A program made the position numbers and the translations under genes. DNA of 44,115 nucleotides, taken from NCBI GenBank assembly GCA_021808665.1, contig JAKBBA010000028.1, positions 1-44,115 of the forward strand, read 5' to 3'. The notes under the pieces are model-generated. The model saw only the letters and a list, made by a program, of their open reading frames with translations. It was not told where the DNA came from and ran no database searches. Below, piece after piece: positions 12,023 to 31,455 of this stretch (position 1 is its first letter; each line of letters opens with the position of its first letter). The stretch is from Actinomycetes bacterium (GTDB lineage Bacteria > Actinomycetota > Acidimicrobiia > Acidimicrobiales > Palsa-688).

Positions 12023-12114
12023 TCCCTGGTCACAGGCTCGCTTAGTAACACGCCTCGTTTGAGCGTTCGCGGCCGATCTCCCTGCTCAACACCGCTTTCT
12101 GGGAGTGTCATGTG

Positions 12115-12139
12115 TCCATCATCTCCGGAAGTCCGGTCC
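12115..12139 (-). repeat. Right terminal inverted repeat of the IS1634-type element
   Basis: The reverse complement of this stretch aligns with 10139-10163 at 18 of 25 positions. ISL3 transposase homology resumes directly after it (GAGGTGGCACGG, encoding EVAR). Confidence 0.75.
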
Positions 12140-12928: not shown

Positions 12929-14443
12929 TCAATCTGGTGGCACTCCATCGACGAGATACGTCCACAGCTCCTCAGCGTACTGGTCCCAGGATCGAGACGG
13001 CCTTCTCAGGGCCTCATTGCTAAGTTTTGAGCGGAGGGAAGGGTCCGTGAGTACTGAGCGGATCCCTCTCGCCACAGCGTCCGGACTTCTCGGATCAACT
13101 TGAATACAGCCTCCCATAACTGCTTGCTCGACCATCGCTCCAAAGTTCGATGTCACTACTGGAGTGCCACAAGCCAATGATTCAGCTACCGGCAGCCCGT
13201 ATCCCTCTTGCAACGAAACCGACACCGACACCGTAGCAATACGATAAGCAGCCCAAAGCAAGGGCTCTGGGGCACGCTCCACCACGATGACCGGTAGGCC
13301 CTGTTGTGACAACTCCCTGACACGTCGCAAGAAGGCGTCCGCCTTCCAAGAGTGTCCACCTATAAAGGCTAAGGCAAACCGAACCCCATCTCGCCAAAGT
13401 AGCTCAGCCGCATGCAGGACCACCATATGATTCTTCCGAGGCTCGTGACTGCCAACGGCAAGGACTATCGGAAGCTGCCCTAATCCAAGCTCGCCTCTCG
13501 CATGGTCAACGTCATTCTGGGTAGAGTTGTATGTACTGACGGCTAGGGGGACTGAGGCAACATCTGGCCCGAGCAGTCCAGTTGAACTGAGCATCGAGCG
13601 CCAACCCCGGAACTCACTCGCAGCGGCGTCCGAAATCGCAGCCACACGATGCACATACCTAGCTGCTGCAAGCATATGCATAAACCCAACTGGCATTCCC
13701 TCACCTGTCGTCTCAGACATCGTCATTGGAACGCAATCAAAACCTACCATACCTACCTGTGATTGCGAGAACTCGAATACCGCTCGAGATGCGGTCGCCC
13801 GAGCCACTTCGCTAAATAACTCGGGAACGATGATGCGCCCGTGCCAGGGGACGATTACAGGTCTTTCACCTTCGTCGCAGCGGCTTAAGGATAATGTGTC
13901 ACCTTCCACGTCTCCCACGGCCCGATTCGCCTCGATCGCATCAAGTCTGCGAAGGCCATCAAAGCCGAACGTCCAGGCAACGAGAGTAACATCCTTGACC
14001 TCGGTCCAACGCCTCACGACCTCTCGGACCACTCGCTGGATTCCCGTCGACAGAGGATACCGAGCAGTATGATCTACGTCAACGAGCACACCCGAGGACA
14101 CCTCCACCCGACGTAGATTGTCCGAATCGATGACGCCAATATGATCTAACGTAGATAGCACAGCCTCAGCGGGGCGACAGCCAACATAGATCGCCCTATG
14201 AAGCCTCTCTACATCAGCGTGAACCGGGAACCTCGCGCCCAGAACGGAGAGCACCAACCAGCACCGACTTTTGTCGTTCGCGCCAAGCACGCCATCCAAG
14301 AAGCTTTCACAGGACAGAGCGCTGCCACTCACCGCTTCAGCGGACTCGATACCAAGCCCATCTGCGAGAGCACCAATACGCTGGCGCAGAGCCCGCACAC
14401 GTGACTCTGATCCGCCGGCCAGAAGTTGCGAAAGTTTTGTCAC
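12929..14443 (-). CDS. GT4-like glycosyltransferase, GT-B of the minus-strand cassette
   Basis: A 504-residue retaining-type GT-B enzyme. The N-terminal half carries a cassette-specific LVDVDHTARYPLSTGIQRVV (about 121-140). The C-terminal Rossmann domain has GSHEPRKNH (about 332-339, diphosphate-binding Arg/Lys) and the E-x7-E motif EGYGLPVAE (Glu413/Glu421). Such proteins transfer a sugar from a nucleotide donor to a growing glycan on the cytoplasmic side; donor and acceptor are unknown. The start GTG at 14443 overlaps the stop of the upstream GT-A gene as GTGA; a longer reading to 14515 would overlap it by about 75 bp and is less likely. It is the paralogue of the gene at 29833-31455, with which it shares SHEPRKNHM and SLACGTPVVTS. 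Confidence 0.85.
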   Translation of the reverse strand: MTKLSQLLAGGSESRVRALRQRIGALADGLGIESAEAVSGSALSCESFLDGVLGANDKSRCWLVLSVLGARFPVHADVERLHRAIYVGCRPAEAVLSTLDHIGVIDSDNLRRVEVSSGVLVDVDHTARYPLSTGIQRVVREVVRRWTEVKDVTLVAWTFGFDGLRRLDAIEANRAVGDVEGDTLSLSRCDEGERPVIVPWHGRIIVPELFSEVARATASRAVFEFSQSQVGMVGFDCVPMTMSETTGEGMPVGFMHMLAAARYVHRVAAISDAAASEFRGWRSMLSSTGLLGPDVASVPLAVSTYNSTQNDVDHARGELGLGQLPIVLAVGSHEPRKNHMVVLHAAELLWRDGVRFALAFIGGHSWKADAFLRRVRELSQQGLPVIVVERAPEPLLWAAYRIATVSVSVSLQEGYGLPVAESLACGTPVVTSNFGAMVEQAVMGGCIQVDPRSPDAVARGIRSVLTDPSLRSKLSNEALRRPSRSWDQYAEELWTYLVDGVPPD

Positions 14444-16044
14444 CGAGAACCCGTAGAGGCGCTGTCGGTCCCGTAATCGAGGGACACCTGCGACTCTCGG
14501 AGACATAGGGTCCACAGTTCGTCAGCGTAGTTCTCCCAGCTATTCCGACTAGAAGGAGCAATCGCGTCTCTCAACCCGTCAAGCGTGGTCTGGCTACAGA
14601 GCAGGAGGCGTAGATTCTGAACACACTCATCAAGATTGCGGGGATCAATACACACCACCCCACCGCGACTCTGGAATTCTTTCATAGCTCCGTAATCAGA
14701 AGTGACAACGGGAACTCCATAGGCAAGGGACTCGGATATTGGAAGCCCATATCCTTCGTGAAGCGATAAGAAGACTGAAAAAGATGCACGGCAATACAGA
14801 ACCGCTAGATCCTCCTCCGAAATCTCGCGATACAGCTCAATAGGGCGACCTTGAGAACGTAGACGTTCTATCACCGCCAAGACATCTTGATCCCAGGCGC
14901 TACCAGCAACGAAGATCAACTTAAACTTGATATCTTCACTCCACAACCGTTCGCAGGCGACTAGGACTCTTCCATGATTCTTTCGAGGTTCGATAGACCC
15001 GACGGATAATATGATTGGTGATTCTAGTGATTCTGGTCTCTCAATTTCTGAGGGAGTGCCTACGCTAGGCAACGTACAGACAGAAACCGTGGGTCCCTTC
15101 AGCCCCTGCGTCGATAAGGTCGAAACAAATCCCCGAAAGTCGCCCGCTGCTGCCTCACTTATCGCAAGTATTGAGTCTGCGTGCTTCACTACTCGCAGAT
15201 ATGAGGCAAACTTAACTATATCAGCATCTGTCACGAGATCGGCACTTGTAACCGGGATACAGTCATATCCAACCAGAACCACCCGGTTCGTAGACAACTC
15301 AGCCAGGTCAGCTATCCGCTCGGACGAGTTCTTGTTCGGTACCTCAAGACAAATGAGTGTCGTATTCCATGGAATGATCCTTACGCAATTGCCGCTGTCA
15401 ACATCATAGTCCGCCTCGTCTAGAGTACCCGTACTACTATGGGGCATCTGTGTAGCCCGGCGGAACTCGGCCGGCTTGAGTTGTCTATAGGAGTTCGCCT
15501 GATCATCCCACGCTACTGGGATGATCGTGTGCTTAGCACACCAAGTTGGTAGTGTACCTCGCACTACCCTTTGAACACCGGTATGCAATGCGGACTGCGC
15601 TGAATGGTCCACATCTACGATGACAGCGCCTGAAACGACCTTGATCTCCTGATTTTGCCGGATCGCGGTCTGTTCGGAGAAAAGCCAAGTGAGGATCCAC
15701 TCGACGACATCCAAGTCGCCTTTCATCTCGATGCGGTATCTCAACTCCTGCACATCTTCTTTAAGAGGAAGGCACCCACCTAATCCAGCGAGGAGCAGCC
15801 ATGCTCCGGACTCGTCGGCTTGTCTTCTGATTAAGTTGATCGCAGCTACCAGGTTTGTTGCTAGGTCGTCGGACAGCAAATCAGGCCTTGTCGTCGTCCC
15901 AACTTGAGGATTGTTAAGCGAGCTCGGCGATTCAGTGTTGCCAGTGCTGCGTGAGGCTTCCTTTCGATCGAAGTGATTGTAGCCAAGATTTGAAAGAATG
16001 ACGGATAGCCTGGAGGTTAGCTGGACTGATAAATTCGAACTCAT
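14440..16044 (-). CDS. GT4-like glycosyltransferase, GT-A of the minus-strand cassette
   Basis: A 534-residue GT-B fold protein with N-terminal VIVDVDHSAQSALHTGVQRVV (about 142-161), GSIEPRKNH (about 348-356) and the E-x7-E motif HEGYGLPISE (Glu429/Glu437), then GVPVVTSDYGAM. All residues expected for nucleotide-sugar binding are present, so it is probably active; the sugar is unknown. The ATG at 16044 overlaps the FkbM stop as ATGA, and its own stop overlaps the next start as GTGA, so the three cassette genes form one coupled operon. An in-frame start at 16113 would overlap FkbM by 73 bp and is rejected. The sequence is more A/T-rich than its plus-strand counterpart at 28219-29832. Confidence 0.85.
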   Translation of the reverse strand: MSSNLSVQLTSRLSVILSNLGYNHFDRKEASRSTGNTESPSSLNNPQVGTTTRPDLLSDDLATNLVAAINLIRRQADESGAWLLLAGLGGCLPLKEDVQELRYRIEMKGDLDVVEWILTWLFSEQTAIRQNQEIKVVSGAVIVDVDHSAQSALHTGVQRVVRGTLPTWCAKHTIIPVAWDDQANSYRQLKPAEFRRATQMPHSSTGTLDEADYDVDSGNCVRIIPWNTTLICLEVPNKNSSERIADLAELSTNRVVLVGYDCIPVTSADLVTDADIVKFASYLRVVKHADSILAISEAAAGDFRGFVSTLSTQGLKGPTVSVCTLPSVGTPSEIERPESLESPIILSVGSIEPRKNHGRVLVACERLWSEDIKFKLIFVAGSAWDQDVLAVIERLRSQGRPIELYREISEEDLAVLYCRASFSVFLSLHEGYGLPISESLAYGVPVVTSDYGAMKEFQSRGGVVCIDPRNLDECVQNLRLLLCSQTTLDGLRDAIAPSSRNSWENYADELWTLCLRESQVSLDYGTDSASTGSR

Positions 16045-17087
16045 CCCCGGTTGCCGACGAATCCTGATCGAAGGAGGTCTTTTGCTCTTCTCAGCGGGAT
16101 TGTCACGCGCCACGACGTAGAGTTTTGTAGTTCCTGAACTGCCGCTCGAAGGCTTGCGTTGTCGGTCCTAAGATCGCGGTTCACTGCTTTTTGCTGTGCT
16201 AATGCATCATCAGCATCGAATAGTTTCTTCTCAAGTAGCCCTCTGATGCGTTGGTTCTCAGAAATTATAGACTCTAGAGATAGTCTGTAGTCTACCGCCT
16301 TCGATCGCCACTTAGCCGTATCTACTATCAATTGGTCGATGTATACTTGGAGTTCTTGCTCACGATCAGCAGCGGATCTTTGGAATTCTGTTGAATAGTT
16401 GTCCAAAGGGCATGCCGGATAGGATGTGTTCACTTTTAGTTCGGGCAGTTTCTCTTTGCTTACATACCACCTAGAGAGCCCATCAAACATTGTCAAGGAA
16501 TACTCCGCATCTTCGAGGAGGTCTTCCCACAAGTGATGCGTCTGGTGGCGCTGGGTTGGACTGGTCGACTCGACTACTACGATCCAAGGTCTCCACAGTG
16601 AAAGATTTGCTCCTGCGAGCGTGCTACGTTCTGACCCTTCGACGTCGACACTCATGAAGTGAATTTCCTCACCTTGCCATCCGAGCTCGTCGAGAATGCA
16701 ATCAATCCGTCGCCGGCTTACCGGTATCGTCTTGGTTTCGTAACCTGCCGAGGTGTGTCGGCGTGCGATGGATTCGATCATTGTCGATAGGCCTGTGCCG
16801 GCGATAGCGTGGAATGGTGCCGATCCTCCATCAACATCACTTGCGATCGCTTCGATACAGAAATCTCGAGGCCTCTGCTGTCGTTGGAGGCTCGCCATCT
16901 CTGGCATCGGCTCGATAGTCAAGCCACTCCATCCTAGGTCATAGAAGGCTTTCGTGACCGAGTAGTAAGATGGATGGTTGGCTCCGACGTCTATGTAACG
17001 GCCAGCCTCTACCGACCGAAGGGCCCGCCATAGGACGACATCTTCCCCATTTTGGCTAAAGGACTCAAACGTTGGAGACATGGTCAT
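16041..17087 (-). CDS. FkbM-family methyltransferase with C-terminal coiled coil, minus-strand cassette
   Basis: A 348-residue protein. Residues 1-210 form an FkbM-type SAM-dependent methyltransferase: FSQNGEDVVLW, IDVGANHPSYYS (SAM loop, 32-42), GWSGLTIEPMPE with the ribose-binding Glu59, and MSVDVEGSE (145-153). Residues of about 225-325 are heptad-like coiled coil, and the extreme C-terminus has STSWRVTIPLRR, a tail motif seen in other glycan-assembly proteins. The family O-methylates sugars or polyketides; here the glycan context suggests sugar methylation, perhaps of a chain end. It is the first gene of the cassette and is coupled to GT-A by ATGA. ATGs at 17087 and 17081 both fit the N-terminus. 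Confidence 0.88.
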   Translation of the reverse strand: MTMSPTFESFSQNGEDVVLWRALRSVEAGRYIDVGANHPSYYSVTKAFYDLGWSGLTIEPMPEMASLQRQQRPRDFCIEAIASDVDGGSAPFHAIAGTGLSTMIESIARRHTSAGYETKTIPVSRRRIDCILDELGWQGEEIHFMSVDVEGSERSTLAGANLSLWRPWIVVVESTSPTQRHQTHHLWEDLLEDAEYSLTMFDGLSRWYVSKEKLPELKVNTSYPACPLDNYSTEFQRSAADREQELQVYIDQLIVDTAKWRSKAVDYRLSLESIISENQRIRGLLEKKLFDADDALAQQKAVNRDLRTDNASLRAAVQELQNSTSWRVTIPLRRAKDLLRSGFVGNRG

Positions 17088-17395
17088 TTCGGCAAGATAG
17101 TAGCAGTGGTCTACGTCGGCTAGTTTGCGATTCAGCGTCTTTCGTCAGGGTCGACGAGGTGGCTGAGCGTGTGACAGTCGACGAGAAGCCGAGTGATCGT
17201 GGAAGCTGCTCGGGCTGCCTACTCCTCGGAGTTGGATGACAGAGGGTCGCGACAAGACTTGTTTGTCATACGTTTATACAGTCTATCAGTGTCTTCTGGG
17301 CAACTCCGTCGCCGCTTGTAAATGACTCTGTCGCTATCTTATATAGATAAGCTTAGTCGTGTCGAAATTCACAATTAGATACCCGCTCGTCTTCG
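17088..17395. promoter_or_regulatory. Upstream region of the minus-strand cassette with an A/T-rich inverted repeat
   Basis: About 300 bp without a gene, lying between the FkbM start and the IS21 relic. It is locally A/T-rich at 17260-17360. A near-palindrome, GCTATCTTATATAGATAAGC, occupies 17333-17352. A promoter for the cassette should be here but no convincing -35/-10 pair was found; the palindrome may be an operator or part of the decayed IS end. Confidence 0.3.
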
Positions 17396-18230
17396 ATGGC
17401 CCCCCTGAGCGTCTGGGGGGAGCCCACGGTCTCGTTCGTGCCGAACAACTTCTTCGCCGGCGAGGACTTCATCGACCGCGATGACGCCCAGCGCCGAGCG
17501 GTGCCTGACCACTGCGGGGATGAGGGTGCACGGAACGCACGCCTGCCGCCCGTCGAAATGTTCAACGTGGAGGGTAAACCCAGACTATTGCTGGCTCCCA
17601 TGTCCCGCTACGACCTGCCGATCTGTGCCAACGCGAAGATCCACCGCGACCATCAGATCGAGGTGCCTAGGCGTTGTATTCGATCCAGGAGAGTCTAATC
17701 GGCGTACAGCACAGGGCCAGGTGCGGGCCGACTCGCATCTGGTCCGGATCTATCACCGCAGCGTACTGATCAAGATCCATCCCCGCCAATCCCCCGGCGG
17801 GCGGGTCACCCACGCCAAGGACCTGCCTGCCCACAAGACCGCGTATGCGATGCGCGACCTCGACCATCTGCGCCGCCTAGCCGCCAGCGAGGGCCTGCTA
17901 TCGGCGCCTACGCAGACGCTCTATTGGGCACAGTACTACCATCGACCAAGCTACGCTAGATCTACGCCCTGCTCGGCCTCGTGAAGAGATGGGGCGAGCC
18001 AGCCGTCGATGCGGCCTGCGCCCGGGTGCTGGAGACCGACGTTGTCAACGTGCCGCTCATCGGCCGGATCATCGAATGAACCATGGAGAATCAGCCCACC
18101 CCGACCGTACCGGCCGCTCGACCGAGCGGCAGCGAACCCCGTTTCGCTCGCGATCCCGGCCACTTCGCCCAGCCGCCACAAGGCGAGACTCGAACAGTTG
18201 TCTCCCGACGCCGAGGGAGGTGTGCCATGA
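17396..18230 (+). pseudogene. istA: IS21-family istA transposase relic
   Basis: Conserved IstA segments occur in order but in alternating frames: FFAGEDFIDRDDAQRRA, AGMRVHGTHACRPS, RYDLPICANAKIHRDHQIEV, RADSHLVRIYHRSVLIKIH then PRQSPGGR, KTAYAMRDLDHLRRLAASEG, YALLGLVKRWGEPAVDAACA, VVNVPLIGRIIE, and finally LEQLSPDAEGGVP ending at 18230. At least four frameshifts are needed to join them, and a TGA at 18077-18079 follows GRIIE. The N-terminal helix-turn-helix and most of the DDE core are missing. The end overlaps the istB start as ATGA, the normal IS21 arrangement. Confidence 0.8.
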
Positions 18231-18480
18231 CCGCTCCTGCCCCGACGGTCACAAACGAACTCAAGAATCTCCTGCGGGCGGTCAAGCTCGGCCGCTGCGT
18301 CGACACGCTCCCCGAACGCCTCGTCCTGGCCCAAGCAGAAGAGCCGGTCCTAGCACGAACTCCCCGAACTGCTCCTCGCTGACGAGGTCACCCGCAGAGA
18401 GACCAGCTCGGCCAGCCTGCGGGCCCGCACCGCCGGCCTCGACGCCGATGGACCGGGCCCGGCCCCACGCCACTGGCGGG
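18227..18480 (+). pseudogene. istB: IS21-family istB helper ATPase relic
   Basis: The ATG at 18227 follows GAGGGAGG and opens a typical IstB N-terminus (NELKNLLRAVKLGR then CVDTLPERLVLAQAE). A frameshift near 18355 moves the homology to another frame (ELPELLLADEVTRRET, SLRARTAGLDADG). Family sequence ends around 18440-18480, before the AAA+ Walker A motif. Only about one third of the protein remains, so it is non-functional. Confidence 0.75.
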
Positions 18481-19204
18481 TGAAAATGGTTCGCGCGCCC
18501 CAGGGTCCGGTTCGTAGTGTGCGCTCATGATGGCCAAACTCGCCAGTCTTTGGAAACGTCGGCTAGCGACGGAGCATTTCGATTATGGCCATGCCGTCAC
18601 AGACTGCTTGGCCAAACGTATGCCAGCGTGGCACGTCGCACGCCACCGAGATGGACGTGGTCGGCCGGATCGGCGTCAACCCCCATTGCGCGTTCCTTGC
18701 CTGCTAGTTCCCGGCGAAAGCCTGAAAGCTCGCAGGGATCTGCTGCCAGACGCAGGCGGTCGTTGCCCGCCATAAGTCCGCGAGCGGCAGACGCAGAGGG
18801 ATGTTCTGGCGTCGAGCTGTCTCGATGGCACTGTGAGCCTCCCGCATCTCTTACTCTAAACGCTCCAAGCGGGCTTGCTGTCTAGCCAGTGAGCATACCC
18901 CTCGGTATCATAACCGCCCGAGCCCGACTGCGACACGTCCAGATCAGCCGTCCAGCTACGGATGAAACCCAACAGCTTGTTGCGCATGTCTTCGTGGGGT
19001 ACAAACCGTGTCTCAGGTTCGTGCGACGGTCTCCTCCGAAGAGCGGGAATCTGGCAAACGCTAGTTATTTCGAAACGGTTAGGCACAAAGTAGGGCTGAG
19101 GCGAACGACGACCTGCCCGACTTCCACCGAGATCCCGCTAACACTTGATTTCAGACCCTCCGTGGCCACCGTCCAACCCGTTGATGCGACGCTAGGATCG
19201 GGGT
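18481..19204. other. Gene-poor interval after the IS21 relic
   Basis: About 720 bp with no convincing complete gene. A minus-strand open stretch at 19086-18856 (76 codons) ends with protein-like sequence (RFVPHEDMRNKLLGF, IRSWTADLDVSQSGSGG), which may be the C-terminal stub of an inactivated gene; no family is recognised. Plus-strand frames at 18517-18885 are biased in composition and not supported. Confidence 0.4.
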
Positions 19205-19441
19205 ATGTACGGCTTGGCTGGAGTTCGACGTCTCGTTCAGCGAGCGCGCCTAGTGCCGTGGCGAGTCGAAGTCATGTCATCCGAGATGGGAGCAATCCGG
19301 ACAGACCTTCACCGAATGAGGGACGAGTTGGACGCTTCCACTCAAGTTCTCGAGGACTCGCTGATGCTGCTCAGCCGCTCGTTGGACGACATCTCCGAGC
19401 GACTCGCTGAGGTGAGGGACCGCCAAAGTCGAGCGATCTGA
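19205..19441 (+). CDS. Small coiled-coil protein preceding a glycosyltransferase-like gene
   Basis: A 78-residue protein with a basic N-terminus (MYGLAGVRRLVQRARL) followed by a continuous heptad pattern from about residue 24 to 75 (for example IRTDLHRMRDELDAST and LSRSLDDISERLAEVRDRQ). No enzyme motif is present. The ATG is preceded by AGGA at about 7 bases. The next gene starts 33 bases later on the same strand. The gene at 22533-22943 has the same design (basic N-terminus, C-terminal coiled coil, directly followed by a GT), so both may be scaffolds or length regulators for the adjacent transferase; that role is inferred. Confidence 0.6.
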   Translation: MYGLAGVRRLVQRARLVPWRVEVMSSEMGAIRTDLHRMRDELDASTQVLEDSLMLLSRSLDDISERLAEVRDRQSRAI

Positions 19442-19474
19442 GACGAGCTTGCGACATCAGAGGATCGGAAGCCA

Positions 19475-20701
19475 GTGAAGCTTAGGTCTGCGGACCGTAC
19501 GGGAATGTCCTCGCTATCAGAGCGCCGTTCGGTGGTGTTCGGCCTCGAGGGCCTCCAGCCGGAGGGAGCCGTTCCTGAGGCAACTATCGAAGCGTCCCTC
19601 GGGTATGTGCGCGCTTTCGCTGCGCGTGAGCCCGGATTGCTGGCAGGCGTAAGTCTGGACTCGTCTTGCGAGCCGTCCCATCTCATACGACACCTTCCCG
19701 ACGGGATCGCGATCGTGCCGCAGTGCGGTGTCGAAACGGCGAACCCGGTGGTTTTCCACGTCCTCAGCCTGCTCGCGAACCGATCAGCGCGAAGTCTGTG
19801 GCCGCTATGGGCGAGGAGCCCATCGGTAGCTCTGGCCGTGAGCGCCCACGACGACCTGACCCGCCAAGCCCTCGAAACCCAGACGAAAGACAAGTCCGGT
19901 CGCCTGAGGGCCAGCCGTCACCGGCTGGTCACCGTGGCGGACGTTGTCGTGGCGACTTCTCAAGCTTCGGCATTGGACGTGGTGGGCTGGGCTGGGATCG
20001 ACCCTTGCAGGGTCTTCGTCGCTCACCAGCCGGCGGGACCGGACCGCCACGACGCATCCGACGGCGACGCCGGCCCGCCCCGAGGAATATTTCCCGATGG
20101 GTTCGACCCTGGGGAGGGTTTCGTGCTCGCAGCGGCGTCAGCTTCGTCGTCGATGCACAACGAGGTGCTAGTTCAAGCGTTCGCTTCTGTCGACCCGGCG
20201 CTGCGGTCCGCCTGGCGGCTCGTGATCGCCTCGTCGCTGGATCAGGGCCCGGGAATGGACAGGCTTAAGGCGCTGATCAGCACCCTCGGCGTCGACAGTA
20301 GCGTGACGGTGCTCACCGGGCTGGGCGACCGTGGCATGCGCGACCTCTACCGGACGTGCCGGATAGCGGTCATCGGCGGGGTAGTGGACGGCTCGATAGG
20401 TGCGGCGCTTGACGCAGCGAGCGCCGGGGCTGGGATAGTAGTTGCCGACCACGACGCCCTCATGGAACTGGTGGCACAGCCAGACGCCCGGTACTACCCG
20501 ACGTCGGTGGACTCCACCCGGTCCGTGCTGTTGCGTTGCCTGACCGACGGCGAGTTCTGCCGTGCGAGGCGCAGCGAGACGGCCGATGCCCTGGCTGGCT
20601 ACGCCGAATCGGACACAGCCGCTTCGCTGCTCAGCGCGTACCGGCGGGCGCTTGAGGCCAGAGCGCGGCGGGCCCTGCCCGCCGCGGCAGCCTCCCTGTA
20701 G
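19475..20701 (+). CDS. GT-B glycosyltransferase-like protein lacking the usual active-site motifs
   Basis: A 408-residue protein with the alternating hydrophobic strand/helix pattern of a two-domain GT-B fold: ADVVVATSQASALDVVGWAG (about 155-174) resembles the end of a GT4 N-domain, and RLVIASSL (248-255), SSVTVLTGL and GIVVADHDALMEL follow C-domain order. At the place of the G-x-x-x-x-R-K-N segment it has AASASSSMHNE (220-230), and at the E-x7-E site it reads VVDGSIGAALDA (303-314). Both catalytic signatures are therefore gone, pointing to a pseudoenzyme or a very divergent transferase. The start is GTG at 19475 after GAGGA; Met11 at 19505 is possible. The 3' end overlaps the convergent GT gene by 103 bp. 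Confidence 0.65.
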   Translation: MKLRSADRTGMSSLSERRSVVFGLEGLQPEGAVPEATIEASLGYVRAFAAREPGLLAGVSLDSSCEPSHLIRHLPDGIAIVPQCGVETANPVVFHVLSLLANRSARSLWPLWARSPSVALAVSAHDDLTRQALETQTKDKSGRLRASRHRLVTVADVVVATSQASALDVVGWAGIDPCRVFVAHQPAGPDRHDASDGDAGPPRGIFPDGFDPGEGFVLAAASASSSMHNEVLVQAFASVDPALRSAWRLVIASSLDQGPGMDRLKALISTLGVDSSVTVLTGLGDRGMRDLYRTCRIAVIGGVVDGSIGAALDAASAGAGIVVADHDALMELVAQPDARYYPTSVDSTRSVLLRCLTDGEFCRARRSETADALAGYAESDTAASLLSAYRRALEARARRALPAAAASL

Positions 20702-22536
20702 AGATCCGCAAGCGCTCCCGGCGCGCTTGCGCTGTCCACCAGGTGGGCTGTCACGCCGGCTCCCTTCAGGGCTGCTCGGGTTTCGTCGCCCGCCGCTATG
20801 ACCGAGTCGACCGTCCATCTCTTAGTCCCGAGCGCATCTACAATCGCGCTCCGCGAGGCTGTCGGGTCGCCGTGGATGCTAACCACGACTCCGCTGGACC
20901 GCCCAGCGGCGGCGATCACCGGGGCGGCCACAGCCGGCTCGAACGACCCGGCGTCGAGCGCTACATGCACGACGTCCGCCAGTGACATCTCGACGGCGTC
21001 TGCTGGAGAGATATCACCCGAGCCCTCGCAGCGGCCCACTGGCTGTTCGACTATGACAGCTCCCAACGAAGCCACCCGATCCCGAAACCACGCAGCGACG
21101 TCGCCGTCCCCGAAGCTGAGATCGACGAAGCCGACCCGCGGTCTGTAAGCCTTGCGCAGCAGAGACTCCAATGCGACCGGCCACCCTTCGATCTGCCCTA
21201 CACGCACCTCCTCGCCGTGTCGGGTCGTAAGGACCCCACCGCCTGCAGTCGACCGGTATATCCCAACCGCGGCGCTCGTGAGGTCACTCGCGGCCATCTC
21301 GACGGTGCTCGTCACGGTCACGTCGGCAAACCCTGCATCCGGGGACCCGACAGTAGCGGCTTGGCTCACGTCGAAACCGGCGCCGGCACCCGCCGAGACG
21401 GCTTCGACCAGCTCGCCGGGTCCTTGGACGGCGACTCGCAGCGGACGGCGAAGGCCGGAGCACTCGTCGATCACAGCGCCGAGTACCGCAGTACGGTCGA
21501 AAGTCTCGAAGTACTTGACCCTGCGCCGCTGCGCCGCACGGGTGCGGTCGAGCCGTGCCTTATCGCCGAGCAAGGAGGCTACAGCGGCTGCGACCCTGGG
21601 AGGGTCGCCGCCCGCGAGAAGTACCCCGGCGTCTCCGATCGTCTCGGCCACCGCCCCGGATCCCACAGCGAACACGGCCAGTCCGGCTGCCATCGCCTCT
21701 AACAGCGGCACTCCGAAGCCCTCGTGCTCGCTGAGCGACACGTAAGCGGCGCATGACCACATCACCTCTAGGAGTTCACGCTCGTCCACCTTGCCGAGGA
21801 TCTCCACCCTGCCGGTCAGGCCCTGCTCAGCGATTTCTCTGTGAATAGCCTTGACGTATTCAGGGAAGGGACCGTACCCGACCAGGATCAGGCGCGCTGA
21901 GCGATCGAACGTCCTCTGGTAGAACCCGAACGAGCGCACGAGTTCCACCTGGCGCTTGCTCGGAACCATTCGACCGACGAACAGCCAATCCCCACTTCGG
22001 CGGCCTTCGGCGGACTCCGGTGGCACGAAGCGACTCCCGTCACTCCACACGGGCAGTACGGCTGCGCTACGAAACCCGACTTCGAGTAGCTCGAGTCGGT
22101 TGTAGTTGGAGTCGGCTACGGCGCTGACACAAATATCTGGCAGTTCACGTAGCTGTTGGCGTCCCAGGTGCAAATAGAAGTTAGTGGACGGCTCGGATAT
22201 GAGCTCGGCTGGGGTGATGTTGTGATAGATCACGGCTATGTCATGGCGGGCGGTGGCGACAAGCTCGAAGCAGTCGACCCCTATAGAGAAATGCCAAAGC
22301 ATTAGTTGGCGCCGGGCGGGGCGGTACTGCGATATCCGCCGCACTTCGCTTTCGCACCCAGCGCCAACCTTCTCTGTGTACAAGTCCGATTCGTAACCCA
22401 TGTCGCGCAGCAGGGTACGAAGTGAGAGCATCTGGGCTGTTATCGCGTCCCCGACGTCGGCGTTCTGGTGGAATTGGTCCACCCTGTCGTAGACGTCCAT
22501 GCCGCGCAGCCTCTGGAGCAAAGCCCCCCTCGTCAT
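20599..22536 (-). CDS. GT4-family glycosyltransferase with an extra C-terminal domain
   Basis: A 645-residue protein. Residues 1-390 are a full GT-B transferase: QFHQNADVGDAI (21-32), IYHNITPAE (103-111), FVGRMVPSKRQ (186-196, diphosphate-binding Arg/Lys) and SEHEGFGVPLLEAM with Glu272/Glu280. The residue pattern matches GT4 enzymes acting in O-antigen-like polysaccharide assembly. Residues of about 390-645 are an additional Rossmann-like region with no recognised motif (VVVSIHGDPTASRSA, DSVIAAGDETRAALKGAGV); it resembles a GT4 N-domain and may be a degenerate second transferase module. The start overlaps the stop of the upstream coiled-coil gene as ATGA. The 3' end overlaps the convergent gene. 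Confidence 0.85.
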   Translation of the reverse strand: MTRGALLQRLRGMDVYDRVDQFHQNADVGDAITAQMLSLRTLLRDMGYESDLYTEKVGAGCESEVRRISQYRPARRQLMLWHFSIGVDCFELVATARHDIAVIYHNITPAELISEPSTNFYLHLGRQQLRELPDICVSAVADSNYNRLELLEVGFRSAAVLPVWSDGSRFVPPESAEGRRSGDWLFVGRMVPSKRQVELVRSFGFYQRTFDRSARLILVGYGPFPEYVKAIHREIAEQGLTGRVEILGKVDERELLEVMWSCAAYVSLSEHEGFGVPLLEAMAAGLAVFAVGSGAVAETIGDAGVLLAGGDPPRVAAAVASLLGDKARLDRTRAAQRRRVKYFETFDRTAVLGAVIDECSGLRRPLRVAVQGPGELVEAVSAGAGAGFDVSQAATVGSPDAGFADVTVTSTVEMAASDLTSAAVGIYRSTAGGGVLTTRHGEEVRVGQIEGWPVALESLLRKAYRPRVGFVDLSFGDGDVAAWFRDRVASLGAVIVEQPVGRCEGSGDISPADAVEMSLADVVHVALDAGSFEPAVAAPVIAAAGRSSGVVVSIHGDPTASRSAIVDALGTKRWTVDSVIAAGDETRAALKGAGVTAHLVDSASAPGALADLYREAAAAGRARRALASSARRYALSSEAAVSDSA

Positions 22537-22943
22537 TGGTCCCCAAGTGGGTCCGCGAGGTCGTCCTCACCGGACGCTTCTTGCTGACGGGCGAGAGCTT
22601 CGAGTCTCGCTGAGAGATCTTCTAGGCGGCGCTCGGTTCGAGCGACTTTGACGCTCATAGCTATGGTTTGGCGTCGAAGGACCCCCAGGTACTGCTTCAC
22701 CTCGTCGAGGCCTTCCGCCAGGGCGGCTTCGAGAGCGGCGGTGGGCTCTTCCGCGCCGGCGGCGTTCCCACCCGACCCCGGCACTGGGACACTGGGCGGC
22801 GGTGAGTCGCTGGGCTGGCTGGCGAGAGGCCCCGCCGCCCTGCCCGCCTGAACGCCCCTGCCCGCCTGGGCAGCCCTGACGGCGCAGGCAGCCCGAAGTC
22901 TTGATAGCAGGCTGCGCGCACGGGAGGACGCTTGTGAGATCAT
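22533..22943 (-). CDS. Small coiled-coil protein coupled to the glycosyltransferase gene
   Basis: A 136-residue protein with three parts: a basic amphipathic N-terminus (about 1-38), a Pro/Ser/Gly/Ala linker (39-68), and a coiled coil (about 69-125, containing LDEVKQYLGVLRRQ and RRLEDLSARLEALARQQ). No catalytic motif. Its stop overlaps the GT start by four bases (ATGA), so the two are almost certainly translated together. Same architecture as the gene at 19205-19441. A role as membrane-associated scaffold or length control for the glycosyltransferase is inferred from this pairing only. Confidence 0.65.
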   Translation of the reverse strand: MISQASSRARSLLSRLRAACAVRAAQAGRGVQAGRAAGPLASQPSDSPPPSVPVPGSGGNAAGAEEPTAALEAALAEGLDEVKQYLGVLRRQTIAMSVKVARTERRLEDLSARLEALARQQEASGEDDLADPLGDQ

Positions 22944-22991
22944 CGTGGCGTAAGTGTAGGCAGCTGAACGCGCCGCTGGAACTTCACGCAG

Positions 22992-25414: not shown

Positions 25415-25439
25415 GTGCGGTCCCCCGGAACGCTAGGAG

Positions 25440-27110
25440 TCAGTGCCGGACGTATTCGCCCGGAGCCGCGACGATCTTAGGATATCTGGCCGATCCCAGA
25501 CTGCGGGGTTTGGGGTGCAGATCCCCAGAGCGGGCTTTGGTCCAGTCCGCCCAGTCGACCCACCAACTTGAGCGGACCTGCTCGGCCCCGGCCAGCCAGT
25601 CCGCCGGGTCGGAGGGATTGCTGTCGTTGGCGTAGAAACTCGCCTTCGGATTTCCGGGCGGGTTGACCAGCGCCTGGATGTGGCCGCTGTTGGAGAGCAC
25701 GAAGCGAGCTTCGCCCCCCAGTTTCTGTGTCGCCGCGTAAGCCGACTGCCAGGGGACAAGGTGGTCGGTGAGAGCTCCGACCACGTACGCGTCCTGCTTG
25801 AGGGTCGCGAGGTCTACCGGGGATCCGAGGACGGTCAGCCAACCGGATTTCATGAGGGCGTTGTCGTTCCACATCCGCATGAACTCGCCGTGCAGGGCAG
25901 CGGGAAGGTTTGTGGCGTCCGCGTTCCACGCTAAGACGTCGAAGGCCGGTGGGTCCTCGCCGAGTAGATAGTTCGCCACCCAGTAGTTCCACACCAGGTC
26001 ATTGGGACGGACCCAGGCGAACACCCTGGACAGCTCCCGGCCGTCGAGCACCCCCTTGCGCTTGGAGGAGGCTATAGCGCTGCGGATGGTCCGCTCGGTG
26101 GAGAACATGTTGAGGGTGCTGGTGATCTGCGTGTCGATCAACGTCACGGCCAGCGTCGCCGAACGTACCAGGTCCCTTCCGTGCGCCGCGAGGTGCGACA
26201 GGACGGCGCACTGCGTCATGCCACCCGCGCAGAAGCCAGCGACGTTGACAGAGTCGTGACCTGAAACCTCGGCGGCGACCTCCGCAGCCTCGATGCACGC
26301 CGCCGCGTAAGCGTCGAAGTCCCAATCCCGATGCTCCGGCGTCGGGTTGCGCCAGGAGATGAGGAAGATCTGGATACCCCGGCTGACCGCGTACTCCACG
26401 AAGCTACGCTTGGGAGCAAGGTCCAAGAAGTAGTACCGGTTGATCTGAGGGGGAATGATCACCGTCGGCCGGGCGGACACTTTTGCTGTCGTCGGTTCGT
26501 ACTGGATCAGTTCGAACATCGCGTGGCGGTGGATCACCTCACCCCGGCTGGCAGCTATCGTCTCTCCGACCCGGAACGGCCTGGTGTCCACCTGGGAGGG
26601 CAGCCCTCCGTTGCGACGGACGTCGTGGACGAAATGTTTCGCACCGTCCACCAGGGAGCGACCCCTAGTGTCGACGGCCCTTCGTAACGCAACAGGGTTG
26701 CCGGCCAGACTGTTCGTGGGCGCCGCAGCATCGACCACCTGACCGAGCGCGAATCGAGCTCTGGCAGCACTCTTGGGGTCCAAGCCGACCTGGTCAACAC
26801 TAGAAAGCAGGCTCGTGGCGCTGACGAGGTAAGACTGCGCGACCCTCCTCCACACCGGGTTCTTCCAGGCAGGATCCGCGAACCGTTTGTCCTTCGGATC
26901 CGGCGTGACCTCCGACACCCCGGCCACAACTCGCGCTTGCTCGCCCGCCCACTTAAGGCCCTCGGAAGTCAAAACCAAGGGGTGGCGCGACGCTGCACCC
27001 GCCCAGCGCGCCGCAGCCGCCACCATGTGGCGTGGCGTCATCCCCACGAACGGGTTCGCACCCTGAGCTATCTGGACGGTGGGATCGTGATCCTCCTGTT
27101 GTTCTGGCAC
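25440..27110 (-). CDS. phaC: Polyhydroxyalkanoate synthase PhaC
   Basis: A 556-residue PHA synthase with the lipase-like box GFCAGGM (Cys294), Asp449 in GALTDHLVPW and His477 in SNSGHIQALVNPP, the Cys-Asp-His triad that polymerises 3-hydroxyacyl-CoA on granule surfaces. IIPPQINRYYFLDLAP and FLISWRNP are family hallmarks. Length fits class I/II single-subunit synthases, and the neighbouring acyl-CoA ligase and PhaZ-like depolymerase resemble the medium-chain (class II) gene set. The GTG at 27110 has GGAGGGG four bases upstream and is preferred over ATGs at 27164/27152, which add a Gly/Arg-rich extension. The 173-bp gap to the divergent FkbM-like gene likely contains the operon promoter. No phasin gene is visible. 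Confidence 0.93.
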   Translation of the reverse strand: MPEQQEDHDPTVQIAQGANPFVGMTPRHMVAAAARWAGAASRHPLVLTSEGLKWAGEQARVVAGVSEVTPDPKDKRFADPAWKNPVWRRVAQSYLVSATSLLSSVDQVGLDPKSAARARFALGQVVDAAAPTNSLAGNPVALRRAVDTRGRSLVDGAKHFVHDVRRNGGLPSQVDTRPFRVGETIAASRGEVIHRHAMFELIQYEPTTAKVSARPTVIIPPQINRYYFLDLAPKRSFVEYAVSRGIQIFLISWRNPTPEHRDWDFDAYAAACIEAAEVAAEVSGHDSVNVAGFCAGGMTQCAVLSHLAAHGRDLVRSATLAVTLIDTQITSTLNMFSTERTIRSAIASSKRKGVLDGRELSRVFAWVRPNDLVWNYWVANYLLGEDPPAFDVLAWNADATNLPAALHGEFMRMWNDNALMKSGWLTVLGSPVDLATLKQDAYVVGALTDHLVPWQSAYAATQKLGGEARFVLSNSGHIQALVNPPGNPKASFYANDSNPSDPADWLAGAEQVRSSWWVDWADWTKARSGDLHPKPRSLGSARYPKIVAAPGEYVRH

Positions 27111-27283
27111 CGCTCCCCTCCCTCGGGTTCGACCACCAACCACGGCGACCATACACCCGCCCAACAGTGCTACGCGTCCAGAGGAGTAGCCGCGGTTGAG
27201 CGGTACAGCCTCGGCGGCCAGGCGGACGGTGCTACCGTTGGGCGAGCGACGTCGGCCAAGGCTGCCGGCTGATATCTCCGAAG

Positions 27284-28222
27284 ATGACGGCGACTCCTAC
27301 CTTCGACTCCTACAGCGACAACGAAGAAGACGTGGTGCTCTGGAGGGCTTTAAGTCCGTACCCGCCGGGCCGTTACGTAGAGGTCACAGACACGCCAGCG
27401 GGCGGCGGTGACGACACGTCGCCCACCAGAGCCTTATACGAGCGAGGCTGGTCAGGTCTACTGGTGACCCCAGACGCTGATCTTGCGGCACGGCACCGGA
27501 CCCTGCGCCCACGGGACATCGCAGCGACCGCTAGAGCCTCCTCGAAAGACGAGCCCGCCGCTGACCCCAAGGCGCCGTTCGTGCCCGAGCGCTGTGTGTC
27601 GTCGCTGATCGGAGATCTCGGCTGGGACAGTGAGGAGTTCCACGTCATGGTCGTCGATATGGAGCGAGACGGCTGGGCTGAACTCGAAGGCGCAGAACTA
27701 GGCCGCTGGCGACCCTGGATCGTCGTGGCGAGAGCGTCCACGGTCACGGATCTCGAGGCTCGAGGTGGCCTTGAGACAATGATGTCGGGCAAGGGCTACG
27801 ACCGCACCATGTTCGACGGGCGAAGCTGCTGGTTCGTGGCCACGGAGCGCTCTCAGCGTCTCGCACATCACCTGTCCTACCCGTCCCGCCCTTTCGACGC
27901 TCACACAAGCAGGGCTCAGCGGCTACTCGAAGCCACGATCTGCGAGCTCGAAGAGTCCCTAGCCAGAGCCAGCGTCGACGTGGCGGCGTGGCGCTCCAAG
28001 GCCCTGTCGGCTTGGGCGTCGGAACGGTGCGCTCTGGCCGAGCGAGACGAGGCAAAAGCTGCGCTGGCCGCTGCGGTTGAGTCCAACGCCGTGACCGTCC
28101 GTGCCCAGATGGAAGAGATCCGCCGCCTGCGAGCCGACCTGGCTGACTTGCGCTCGTCCACTTCCTGGCAGGTCACGGCTCCCCTCAGGCGTGTCACGTC
28201 TGCGCTCAAGCGAAACCCGTGA
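27284..28222 (+). CDS. FkbM-like protein with degraded SAM site, plus-strand cassette
   Basis: A 312-residue paralogue of the FkbM protein at 16041-17087; the two share FDSYSDNEEDVVLWRAL / FESFSQNGEDVVLWRAL starts, GWSGL, WRPWIVV, MFDG and the C-terminal STSW.VT.PLRR. Here the SAM loop DVGANHPS is replaced by EVTDTPAG (33-40), IEPMPE by VTPDAD (61-66), and VDVEGSE by VDMERDG (124-130); about 35 residues between them are also missing. The SAM-binding and catalytic features are thus lost while the frame, coiled-coil (about 205-290) and tail are kept, so the protein probably has a structural role. Its stop overlaps the next start as GTGA. The start ATG lacks a clear Shine-Dalgarno. Confidence 0.8.
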   Translation: MTATPTFDSYSDNEEDVVLWRALSPYPPGRYVEVTDTPAGGGDDTSPTRALYERGWSGLLVTPDADLAARHRTLRPRDIAATARASSKDEPAADPKAPFVPERCVSSLIGDLGWDSEEFHVMVVDMERDGWAELEGAELGRWRPWIVVARASTVTDLEARGGLETMMSGKGYDRTMFDGRSCWFVATERSQRLAHHLSYPSRPFDAHTSRAQRLLEATICELEESLARASVDVAAWRSKALSAWASERCALAERDEAKAALAAAVESNAVTVRAQMEEIRRLRADLADLRSSTSWQVTAPLRRVTSALKRNP

Positions 28223-29832
28223 CCGACCGCTCTACAGCCGGACTCGTGGAGGCCTCCCTGGCCGCAAGACTACGGCAAGTCCTACCCTACTTGGAGGGCC
28301 CTGGCGACTGCGACTCTGGGCCAAGGCTGACGGACGCCGGCGACCTTATCGACGCGACAGCCCGTCACGTGTGCGCTGACCCGGCTACCGACAAGTTGTG
28401 GCTTGTCCTCGCCGCTACAGCAGGGCGCCTGCCCACAGCCGGCGACGTCCGCGAAGCCCACTACCGGGCCGAGACGTCCAGTCCAACTCAGATGGCGCTT
28501 TGGATGCTCGACGATTCAGCTCGCCGTTCAACCCCGGCCAGCGCCGTTCGCTCCATACGCCTGGTAGGCGACCATGTCCTCGTCGACGCAGGCGCCAGAC
28601 TGCACGTGGGCGCCTCGACCGGCCACGCCCAGCGTGGTCTGGATCGCCATCCGCTGGTTCCAGACTTCGACCGCCTCGTCGCTGTACTCACAGCCTGCTG
28701 GAAGAACAAGGATCGTTACCTGCGCGTCGCGTGGGATCCCACCTTCGGCTGTTGGACAGCCGACGACGAGCTAATAGTCCCTTGGAGGACCACCGTCGTC
28801 GTCCTTGGCACTACAGCGTTGGAGATGCGAGATCCATTGGCTGCGGCAGCGGAGATGTCGGGCTCCACATTTGCGGCGCTCGTCGATGACAACTTCCCCG
28901 CCGCCAGCGGCGGTCTCATCCCGGACGAGTACCTGGAACAGACCGTCCATCACCTCAATGCGCTCAAGCACTTCTCGCGCGTAGCGGCCCTGAGCGAAGC
29001 CTCTGCTGTCGACTACCGAGGGTTCGTTTCAGCCATGCCCGCCCAAGGAGTTCGTGCACCTCAAGTCGTCTACTGTGCCTTAGCCACCGATCCCTTCCCG
29101 CCTGAGCCTGGTATCAGCGCTGAACTGCCACAAGGCTGCCGTTATACGCGTGCGCAGGAAAAGCTAGGGGATACCGCTTCGAATGGGGACTCAGAACCTC
29201 CGATAAACCAACCCATAGACCTGTCACCAGATCTTCCAACAATACTGTGCGTCGGAGCAGCTGACAGACGATTTAACCTTGCCGGACTGCTGTGCGCAGC
29301 GGACCTTCTGTGGACTGAGGGGATCCAATTCGAGCTCAATCTCGTCTTCAGCAAACTTGGCACCGGCGACTTTCCACCGCTCAACGATCGCCTTCTACCA
29401 GCCGGACGTCCCATAAAAATCCACTTAGCGACAGACCAGATCGACCTGGAGGCCCTTTACGCTACCGCGAGGTTCTGCATCTCGGCGTCTAACCACGAGG
29501 GTATGGCGATCTGGACCTCCGAGGTCCTCTCTCGGAGCATACCCGTACTGTCATCGCCACGGAACGCTTGGAACGGCGACCGCTACACGGCGGGCGTTAT
29601 GGCTGTCGACATCGACGACAGCCACGACTTGGTCGCTGCGATTCGCCTCCTCTTGACAGACGACGTCGCGGTCTCACATCTGAGGGACGAAATAGCGAGT
29701 CGAGGTCGCCGCCCGTGGGATAAGTTCAGCGACGAGCTGTGGAGCTTCCTCGTGGACGCAGCTAGCCCCCCGGATGATCGTGCTGTCGCCTTCGAACCCG
29801 CCGGCCACCAGCAGTTATCGTCCAGCTCTTAG
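28219..29832 (+). CDS. GT-A paralogue of the plus-strand cassette, probable pseudoenzyme
   Basis: A 537-residue paralogue of the glycosyltransferase at 14440-16044, with matching landmarks (SEASAVDYRGFVSAMPAQGV, LLWTEGIQFEL, WDKFSDELWSFLVD). The diphosphate-binding segment GSIEPRKNH is replaced by GAADRRFNL (346-354), and VDVDHSA...TGVQRVV by VDAGARL...GHAQRGL (122-141). The E-x7-E spacing survives (Glu427/Glu435 in NHEGMAIWTSE), but the Gly-Leu-Pro between the two is gone. A conserved frame of full length with lost donor-site residues suggests a retained, non-catalytic role or recent decay. Coupled to the FkbM-like gene (GTGA), and its TAG is directly followed by the next gene's ATG. Confidence 0.78.
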   Translation: MTDRSTAGLVEASLAARLRQVLPYLEGPGDCDSGPRLTDAGDLIDATARHVCADPATDKLWLVLAATAGRLPTAGDVREAHYRAETSSPTQMALWMLDDSARRSTPASAVRSIRLVGDHVLVDAGARLHVGASTGHAQRGLDRHPLVPDFDRLVAVLTACWKNKDRYLRVAWDPTFGCWTADDELIVPWRTTVVVLGTTALEMRDPLAAAAEMSGSTFAALVDDNFPAASGGLIPDEYLEQTVHHLNALKHFSRVAALSEASAVDYRGFVSAMPAQGVRAPQVVYCALATDPFPPEPGISAELPQGCRYTRAQEKLGDTASNGDSEPPINQPIDLSPDLPTILCVGAADRRFNLAGLLCAADLLWTEGIQFELNLVFSKLGTGDFPPLNDRLLPAGRPIKIHLATDQIDLEALYATARFCISASNHEGMAIWTSEVLSRSIPVLSSPRNAWNGDRYTAGVMAVDIDDSHDLVAAIRLLLTDDVAVSHLRDEIASRGRRPWDKFSDELWSFLVDAASPPDDRAVAFEPAGHQQLSSSS

Positions 29833-31455
29833 ATGACGACGTTAAGAGCCCTGGTCGGCACCTCTCACTCCTCTCGCTCGGCTGAGCTACTGGACCGCCT
29901 TCGTGTCTTCGTAGGGGCTATCGGGCCGCTCGACGGCCCTACGAGCCTTGCAGACGCCGACGAGACGTGCTCGGCGGCAGAGGCCGCGCTCGATGGAGCT
30001 CGCCCCGAGCTTTGGTGGCTTGGCCTGTCGGTCCTTTCAGCCCGGATAGCTGACACGGCAGCCGTCGAGGAGTCATGTCATGCCGTTCGACGTGGGAGCC
30101 CCCCCGGAGCAGTGGTTGTCGACACCCTGCAGCGCTTCGGCCATCTTGAGCCTGAGAGCTGGCCGCCAGTCTCGGTCCATCGAGGTGGTGTGCTCGTCGA
30201 CGTCGATCAAGTGTCACGCAACCCACTCGGGACTGGGATACAGCGGGTGGTCCGCCAGACCGCTAGACGTTGGGGTGGCAACCCGGAGACGACTTTGGTC
30301 GGATGGGCAGACGGCTACGTAGGGTTGAGGAAGTTGAGCCCGGCCGAGGTCGCCCAGGCCACAGATCAACACATACTTGCGACGGATAGCAGCCCAGGCG
30401 CAGGCGGCCCCGGCAGTTCGTTCGCACCGCTAACCGGGCCCACTGGGGGCTCGGGAGCAGTCCTCATCCCGTGGCGCACGACCCTGTTGGTCGCCGAGCT
30501 CGCCATCGAAGACGAAAGGCCATCGGCGCTGGCAGGTATAGCCCGATTCGCACGCTCCTCTACCGGGCTCGTCGGCTATGACTGTGTACCCCTGACTATG
30601 CCAGAGACCACTGGCAGCGGCATGGTACAGCCCTATATGCGCTACCTCGCCGCCTGCGCCTACGCGACGAGAATTGCAGCTATCTCCGAGACCGCCGCCT
30701 CAGAGTTTCACGGGTGGCGTTCCACCCTCGCGTCCCGCGGGATGAGTGGCCCCGAGGTTCAGACCGTGGAGCTCGCTACCGAGGTGCCTCCATCTGCGCC
30801 TCCCCCAGAATCCACCAGTATGGGCGGAGGGCGCGGCCACGCGCCGGCCCTTCCCTTCGCAGGCAGCGACATCCCACTAGTGGTCGCCGTGGGAAGCCAC
30901 GAGCCACGCAAGAACCACATGGCCGTGTTACACGCCGCAGAGCTTCTGTGGCACCGAGGCGAAGAGTTCTCCCTGGTTTTCATCGGCGGCAACTCCTGGA
31001 ACAGCGAACCGTTCTTCGACAGGCTCGATGAGCTGCGCTCGAAGGGTCGCAGGGTGGAGTCTCTCAGCGCGGCACCCGACCATCTCGTGTCGTCTGCCTA
31101 CCGTTCCGCCGCGTGCAGCGTCTTCGTGTCACTCCACGAAGGTTTCGGTCTGCCGATAGTCGAATCCTTGGCGTGCGGGACACCCGTGGTCACCTCCGAC
31201 TACGGGGCGATGGCCCATAACGCCCGCCATGGCGGCTGCCTGCTCGTCGACCCGCGCGACCCACACCAAATTGCGGAGGCAATCTCAAGAGTCATAAACC
31301 ATGACGGTCTGCGCCACAAACTAAGAAGCGAAGCGGCGGCCATCGCCGCCAGGACCTGGGACACCTACGCCCAAGAAGCGTGGGATTTCCTGGTCCACGG
31401 CCGCCCTCCCTCACAATCAATGCTGGGGAAGCGACAGACCGGGTCAGCTTCCTAG
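29833..31455 (+). CDS. GT4-like glycosyltransferase, GT-B of the plus-strand cassette
   Basis: A 540-residue paralogue of the gene at 12929-14443. It keeps every expected element: LVDVDQVSRNPLGTGIQRVV (121-140), VGYDCVPLTMPETTG, GSHEPRKNH (354-362), and LHEGFGLPIVE with Glu436/Glu444 followed by CGTPVVTSDYGAM. It is therefore likely catalytically active, unlike its two cassette partners. Donor and acceptor are unknown. The ATG lies directly after the TAG of the preceding gene. The 3' end overlaps the end of the convergent YhaN/SbcC-like gene by 12 bp. Higher G+C than the minus-strand copy. Confidence 0.87.
   Translation: MTTLRALVGTSHSSRSAELLDRLRVFVGAIGPLDGPTSLADADETCSAAEAALDGARPELWWLGLSVLSARIADTAAVEESCHAVRRGSPPGAVVVDTLQRFGHLEPESWPPVSVHRGGVLVDVDQVSRNPLGTGIQRVVRQTARRWGGNPETTLVGWADGYVGLRKLSPAEVAQATDQHILATDSSPGAGGPGSSFAPLTGPTGGSGAVLIPWRTTLLVAELAIEDERPSALAGIARFARSSTGLVGYDCVPLTMPETTGSGMVQPYMRYLAACAYATRIAAISETAASEFHGWRSTLASRGMSGPEVQTVELATEVPPSAPPPESTSMGGGRGHAPALPFAGSDIPLVVAVGSHEPRKNHMAVLHAAELLWHRGEEFSLVFIGGNSWNSEPFFDRLDELRSKGRRVESLSAAPDHLVSSAYRSAACSVFVSLHEGFGLPIVESLACGTPVVTSDYGAMAHNARHGGCLLVDPRDPHQIAEAISRVINHDGLRHKLRSEAAAIAARTWDTYAQEAWDFLVHGRPPSQSMLGKRQTGSAS

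Follow-up and report, generated by a model that had tools for sequence, protein, structure and literature searches.

An intact, probably imported glycosyltransferase cassette beside a resident cassette with two putative pseudoenzymes in an Acidimicrobiales genome

The contig JAKBBA010000028.1 of an Actinomycetes bacterium of the order Acidimicrobiales (Palsa-688), treated here as a single window of 44,115 nucleotides, carries two cassettes, each encoding an FkbM-fold protein (A) followed by two proteins of the GT4 glycosyltransferase family (B and C). Cassette 1 runs from 17087 to 12929 on the minus strand and cassette 2 from 27284 to 31455 on the plus strand. The favoured explanation, given a little under an even chance, is that the A2 and B2 proteins of the resident cassette 2 are pseudoenzymes acting as a scaffold and a co-activator of C2, and that they share the window with an intact, imported cassette 1.

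Loss of catalytic motifs in cassette 2

An initial annotation had described two inverted copies of one three-gene cassette, and the open reading frames agree with it in coordinates, gene order and opposite orientation. The tight junctions are also as described, with ATGA between A1 and B1, GTGA between B1 and C1, GTGA between A2 and B2, and TAG-ATG between B2 and C2. The labelling of the middle gene as GT-A has to be given up: both glycosyltransferases of each cassette are of the GT4/GT-B type (PF00534, PF13692), and Pfam recognised no GT-A gene in either. The homology of positional partners is far beyond chance, with protein identities by blastp of 35% for A1 and A2 (E 4e-55), 28% for B1 and B2 (E 3e-50) and 42% for C1 and C2 (E 1e-127), whilst blastn between the cassettes gives a single 88-bp match (73%) besides three of 15–19 bases. 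By blastp within the window, each protein is nearest to its positional counterpart, as had been claimed, in the case of A, C and B2, the last matching B1 best (159 bits versus 104–111 for the others), but not in the case of B1, which is closest to C2 (230 bits) and C1 (228 bits) and scores only 171 bits with B2. Of the proposed landmarks, STSW.VT.PLRR occurs in A1 and A2 and SHEPRKNHM in C1 and C2; PVVTSDYGAM occurs in B1 and C2, but C1 has PVVTSNFGAM and B2 has neither.

A1 (16041–17087, minus strand) is a plain member of the FkbM methyltransferases with a C-terminal STSWRVTIPLRR tail. It exceeds the cut-offs of both family models, PF05050 (E 5e-22; 79.2 bits against 22.7) and TIGR01444 (42 against 37.7), and its motifs DVGANHP, IEP, TGLST and DVEGSE are intact. 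A2 (27284–28222, plus strand) shares the class I methyltransferase fold, as predicted by a match to 2py6, but reaches neither model, giving no PF05050 match at E 0.001 or E 1 and no NCBIfam match at E 0.1. It lacks motif I (DxGA) of the S-adenosylmethionine (SAM) site and the acidic (I/V)EP, reading VEVTDTPAGGG and VTPD instead; in total four SAM-site motifs are gone, together with a 26-residue segment. A long helix, predicted at residues 210–291, and the STSWQVTAPLRR tail are kept, and A2 is classed as a probable pseudo-methyltransferase. A PDB sequence search returned no match for A1, and for the A profile only chance coiled-coil and other weak matches.

Losses of this kind recur in the A2 clade, which is represented by 13 rows (the window, the contigs L001, L002 and L003 from related genomes, and the protein entries P0002–P0010, with P0005, P0006 and P0009 near-duplicates). 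All 13 have lost DVEGxE, the TGLST segment and the acidic glutamate that follows the second strand; the motif I glycine is missing from four and displaced by an insertion in another four. Among the other A rows, with genomes G026 and G027 set apart, the glutamate is kept in 13 of 13 and DxEGxE in 11 of 13. The A genes of G026 and G027 fall elsewhere in the tree and lack the same three features as the A2 clade; the approximately unbiased (AU) test weakly rejected the hypothesis that the degenerate A genes all share one origin (p 0.041), the group having been named after the tree was viewed. Mean pairwise identity in the SAM region, coil and tail is 0.43, 0.52 and 0.74 in ten A2-clade rows, and 0.56, 0.23 and 0.37 in eight intact rows, with the RPWIVV segment similar in both (0.83 and 0.82). 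Constraint in the A2 clade has moved from the SAM region to the coil and tail.

B1 (14440–16044, minus strand, with a refined start at 16044; PF00534 at 8e-19) is an intact GT4 glycosyltransferase with TGVQRVVR, PRKN and the E-x7-E pair. B2 (28219–29832, plus strand) is predicted to have the GT-B fold of GT4 enzymes, with about 110 N-terminal residues outside the matched range. It has RRFN for PRKN, losing the lysine, and PDFDR for TGxQR, and keeps E-x7-E as EGMAIWTSE. In GT4 enzymes this lysine is the phosphate-binding residue. It is gone and the loop changed in all nine rows of the B2 clade, the loop glycine is missing from five of them including the window, and both glutamates are kept in eight including the window, L003 having lost the second. 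B2 is thus probably a pseudo-glycosyltransferase. In the B gene of L002 (4478–6205, P0025) a short TPTLR-type repeat stands just ahead of the loop region.

The remaining GT4 genes are mostly intact. The checked residues are all present in C1 (12929–14443, minus strand, refined start 14443; PF00534 at 2e-23) and in C2 (29833–31455, plus strand; PF00534 at 1e-26), whose lysine and glutamate positions were matched to those of MshA by alignment with 3c4q. In the comparison set 18 of 19 C rows and five of six other B rows are intact, the degenerate ones being the B gene of G397 (PITN, D...Q) and the C gene of G292 (PSSN, loop absent). All five checked residues are kept in 119 of 119 C1 homologues after P0028, among the 120 of 1322 matches listed, a list biased toward likeness with an intact protein. 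In G026 the B gene (L027, 965–1978, minus strand) lacks about 235 middle residues within one open frame, unless the assembly is at fault, and may likewise represent the loss of a cassette subunit. In G292 (L030, 6376–12618) a Methyltransf_23 protein, not an FkbM one, precedes B and the degenerate C.

The alternative that survives best, although it is considered unlikely, is that A2 and B2 are enzymes of changed specificity, A2 binding another ligand and B2 using another donor or performing a VldE-like coupling. The retained E-x7-E of B2 forms part of that proposal. It has to contend with the loss of the phosphate-binding lysine in nine of nine B2-clade rows and, in the window A2, with the absence of the four SAM-site motifs and of the 26-residue segment.

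Origin of the two cassettes

Gene order in related genomes ties cassette 2 to its surroundings. Contig L002 (G002) has the order of the window, namely AMP-ligase, PhaC, A, B, C, AAA27, exonuclease, RecD and RecB, with identities to the window of 89% for PhaC and 78% for RecB. The PhaC-like synthase (25440–27164, minus strand; PF07167) adjoins A in both G001 and G002, and the SbcC-like AAA_27 protein (31444–35193, minus strand; PF13514), convergent with C2, is likewise in the same place in both. L051 (G002) and L052 (G001) carry D, E, u22533, abh and AMP-ligase in window order; two G002 contigs each end inside the AMP-ligase gene and are presumed to join there. L003 (G003) reads UGDH, GMD-like, GT2, D, E, A, B and C, with one GT2-like gene between GT2 and D. 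By these comparisons the window from D (19475) onward represents a conserved locus that includes cassette 2, which is thus the resident cassette; in the favoured explanation it has been vertically kept in a small clade. The cassettes had been said to frame an accessory region, a description that fails, as the genes between them (19.5–27.2 kb) are conserved in order in G001 and G002.

The variable part of the locus lies instead between the GT2 gene (5802–6512) and D, a stretch of about 13 kb in the window that holds cassette 1. In L050 only about 420 bp separate D from a reduced GT2, and neither L003 nor L050, both from G003, has cassette 1 in the corresponding interval. Insertion-sequence genes or remnants lie on both sides of the cassette: an IS1634-family transposase (10382–12022, plus strand; PF01609, with plasmid records annotated IS1634) and an ISL3-family transposase fragment (12059–12634, plus strand; PF01610, profile positions 1–109 of 240) on the C1 side, and an IS21 istA-like stretch (17447–17865; 68.3% by blastn to records annotated istA in Rhodococcus plasmids) on the A1 side. 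The GC content at third codon positions (GC3) is 0.52–0.55 in A1, B1 and C1 versus 0.68–0.84 in eight resident genes. No A1-like gene besides the degenerate A was found in G001, G002 or G003 at E 1e-10, within the limits set by incomplete metagenome-assembled genomes (MAGs), and each of the three has one C-profile match above 600 bits. The initial annotation had allowed for import of a homologous operon, and these observations support it. Because of the low GC3, the flanking insertion sequences and the absence from the relatives' intervals, acquisition from outside is the best-supported origin of cassette 1. P0028, a 504-residue protein, is 100% identical to C1 over 95% of the longer query; its protein cluster has four members, as against eight for A2 (P0001) and ten for B2 (P0021), a difference which may hint that cassette 1 is not in all strains.

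In most trees cassette 1 branches as the sister of the complete cassette-2 clade. The 26-row A tree puts A1 next to the entire A2 clade as its sister (support 99/96), and the 47-row B/C tree gives B1 the same position relative to the B2 clade (95/88); there C2 lies within an 8-row clade (97/100), with C1 not firmly placed. In trees of eight cassettes A1 joins the A2 clade (98/96) and C1 the C2 clade (95/97), with B1 not firmly placed, and the concatenated 8-row tree unites cassette 1 with the cassette-2 clade at 100/100 against G027, G397 and G092. A one-to-one cassette topology, which the initial annotation had proposed as a check, is mostly supported, being seen for A in all trees and in the concatenation, for B1 only in the 47-row tree and for C1 only in the 8-row tree. 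The B gene of L027 (G026), without its middle stretch, and the C gene, cut by the contig end, were left out of all trees; the near-copies P0001, P0006 and P0009 were left out of the A trees and P0021 and P0026 out of the B/C tree, which took in 23 of the 119 entries P0029–P0147. G292, having no A gene, is outside the 8-row trees. On the concatenated 8-row tree, in which cassette 1 carries a composition warning, the AU test rejects both alternatives compared, cassette 1 as sister of G397 alone (p 2e-8) and as sister of G027 alone (p 2e-4).

Duplication of a whole operon had been the other origin put forward. A recent duplication in this genome is rejected on the trees together with protein identities of 28–42% and almost no DNA similarity, because the two cassettes had separated before the cassette-2 clade spread. 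On balance, cassette 1 appears to be a sister-lineage cassette and not a recent copy made here. A recombination switch between the inverted cassettes is similarly ruled out, as they share almost no DNA.

An ancient duplication is harder to dismiss but still improbable. By this account cassette 1 was lost in G001–G003 and kept here, A2 and B2 having degenerated under its cover. An old duplication would give the sister position of cassette 1 to the entire cassette-2 clade that most trees recover; it would leave the GC3 contrast, the insertion-sequence genes or remnants on both sides and the L003 and L050 intervals lacking cassette 1 to be accounted for. Moreover, G001–G003 keep the degenerate A with no intact A1-like gene at E 1e-10, so that in those genomes the degeneration does not call for cover by cassette 1.

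Selection, spread and neighbouring genes

Between L001 and L002 the ratio of nonsynonymous to synonymous substitution rates (dN/dS) is 0.231 for A, 0.330 for B and 0.264 for C, compared with 0.100 for PhaC and 0.126 for AAA27, and no in-frame stops are present. In this genome pair the degenerate A2 and B2 genes are under purifying selection. That cassette 2 is merely decaying, A2 and B2 being young pseudogenes left open by chance in GC-rich DNA rich in long open frames (109 of at least 100 residues in the window) and B being the fastest-evolving of the three genes, is very improbable given the same loss in 13 rows across several deep branches, the dN/dS values of 0.23–0.33 and the tight junctions kept in L001, L002 and L003.

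C-profile matches occur in five of 32 genomes of the family and, among drawn genomes with G002 included, in at least six of 397 for the order, at least two of 396 for the phylum and at least two of 395 for the class, these three counts being lower bounds with up to three candidates scored per genome.

The neighbouring UGDH, epimerase/dehydratase, GT2 and GT4 genes recognised by Pfam fit a surface glycan locus; Pfam recognised no glycan transporter or polymerase in the window, which also contains no Rfam family or tRNA. D (19475–20701, plus strand; weak PF00534) is a resident GT4-like protein whose relatives occur in G001, G002 and G003; its gene overlaps and is convergent with the resident GT4 gene E (20599–22536, minus strand; PF13692 at 1e-22). 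By eye, the usual lysine and first glutamate positions look changed in the window D and in the three related copies on L003, L050 and L051, and D may be a third pseudoenzyme of the locus. G003 has two contigs, L003 and L050, each with UGDH, GMD-like, GT2 and D, which would reflect a second copy or else a mixture of strains in the MAG. After its cassette, L003 (11639–15622, minus strand) has a 1327-residue Kelch-repeat protein where the window has the SbcC-like gene.

Beyond the C1 end, a low-GC (48.8%) gene at 7225–9369 on the minus strand encodes a 714-residue protein of membrane character, as judged by eye, and with no Pfam match. Of eight genomes searched at E 1e-6, homologues were found in G397, where the gene adjoins the A-B-C cassette, and in G027, G026 and G002; the protein possibly travelled with cassette 1. 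In the region 9780–12634 a broken ISL3-like start, read by eye near 9790–9890, precedes the IS1634 transposase, which may have inserted inside an ISL3 element.

Proposed role and wider setting

In the favoured explanation, cassette 2 would have descended from an FkbM methyltransferase–GT4–GT4 operon for a surface glycan. A2 in this clade would no longer bind SAM and B2 would no longer transfer sugar in the standard way, both being kept as translation-coupled, non-catalytic subunits. Lost catalytic motifs, combined with a kept fold, helical tail, operon and tight junctions, would suit proteins preserved for their binding. A2 would be a scaffold made up of a dead methyltransferase head, a long helix and the STSWQVTAPLRR tail, which is basic and amphipathic and would lie near the membrane. 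B2 would be a GT-B partner stabilising or positioning C2, the sole active transferase of cassette 2. Cassette 1, the intact sister-lineage cassette, would have arrived with insertion sequences between the GT2 gene and D, and may bring back both methylation and a second sugar addition. From sequence and predicted structure we infer the loss of catalysis, complex formation, the membrane role, the glycan product and the donor lineage.

Several observations weigh against this explanation. Five of the 13 A2-clade rows retain the motif I glycine in place, the heptad signal of the A2 helix is weak, and the samples compared for regional identity (10 versus 8 rows) differ in depth. Some B2 catalysis is possible, given the kept E-x7-E (8/9) and the loop glycine retained as PGFDR (4/9). 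The dN/dS values come from one MAG pair, with A, B and C all above the two flanking genes. The placements of B1 and C1 vary between trees, a composition flag falls on B1 in the 47-row tree and on cassette 1 in the concatenation, and the comparison genomes are relatives of the window organism.

Amongst known systems, the C-terminal region of Escherichia coli O9a WbdD recruits the WbdA transferase (PMC3482155, PMC5082667). WbdD resembles the proposed A2 in its methyltransferase head, long C-terminal helix and C-terminal region that brings a glycosyltransferase to the membrane, a likeness of architecture; WbdD is catalytic, unlike the predicted state of A2, and at E 0.001 Pfam found only FkbM in A1, with no WbdD-type kinase domain after the methyltransferase. 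Set against the trimeric coiled coil by which WbdD recruits a transferase, A2 has a predicted helix at residues 210–291 with a weak heptad signal. The streptococcal GtfA–GtfB pair, which acts on serine-rich repeat (SRR) adhesins, also consists of two linked glycosyltransferase-like proteins, a transferase (GtfA) and a chaperone-like partner (GtfB; PMC6973325). It differs in that the third gene here is a degenerate methyltransferase, and Pfam recognised no serine-rich adhesin or accessory Sec gene in the window. At E 0.001 B2 and C2 match only PF00534, PF13692, PF20706 and PF13524, although the model of the GtfA–GtfB interaction domain, DUF1975, may now bear another name. With respect to their own families, A2 departs from the FkbM methyltransferases (PF05050, TIGR01444) in its lost SAM-site motifs, and B2 from the MshA-like GT4 retaining glycosyltransferases, whose motifs are those of B1, C1 and C2 and whose fold it shares, in its missing phosphate-binding lysine and changed loop. 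Dead methyltransferase domains are kept beside active partners in METTL14 and animal FASN, which differ in being eukaryotic, with an unrelated setting and substrate.

A wider reading, held tentatively and regarded as rather less than evenly probable, is that FkbM–GT4–GT4 operons are recurrently hollowed out: different subunits would lose catalysis in different lineages, the linked set would be kept as an obligate complex, and import of an intact sister would restore the activities. It draws on the apparent losses in the cassette-2 clade (A and B), in G026 and G027 (A), in G397 (B) and in G292 (C). If the complex is obligate, any one subunit may become a pure scaffold or allosteric partner.

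Among the matches listed from the open-licence literature, none concerned an FkbM–GT4–GT4 pseudoenzyme cassette. The conserved degenerate subunits are considered new, as a variation on the known theme of a pseudoenzyme and its partner. To our knowledge, inactive enzymes that direct active partners have been studied best in eukaryotes, and bacterial glycan systems offer few examples. Such genes should not be annotated as active enzymes. For an operon with two degenerate genes and one intact gene, the intact sister operon in the same window is a natural control, and the system is suited to asking whether the products of such glycan operons form obligate complexes, and how a subunit passes from catalysis to scaffolding.

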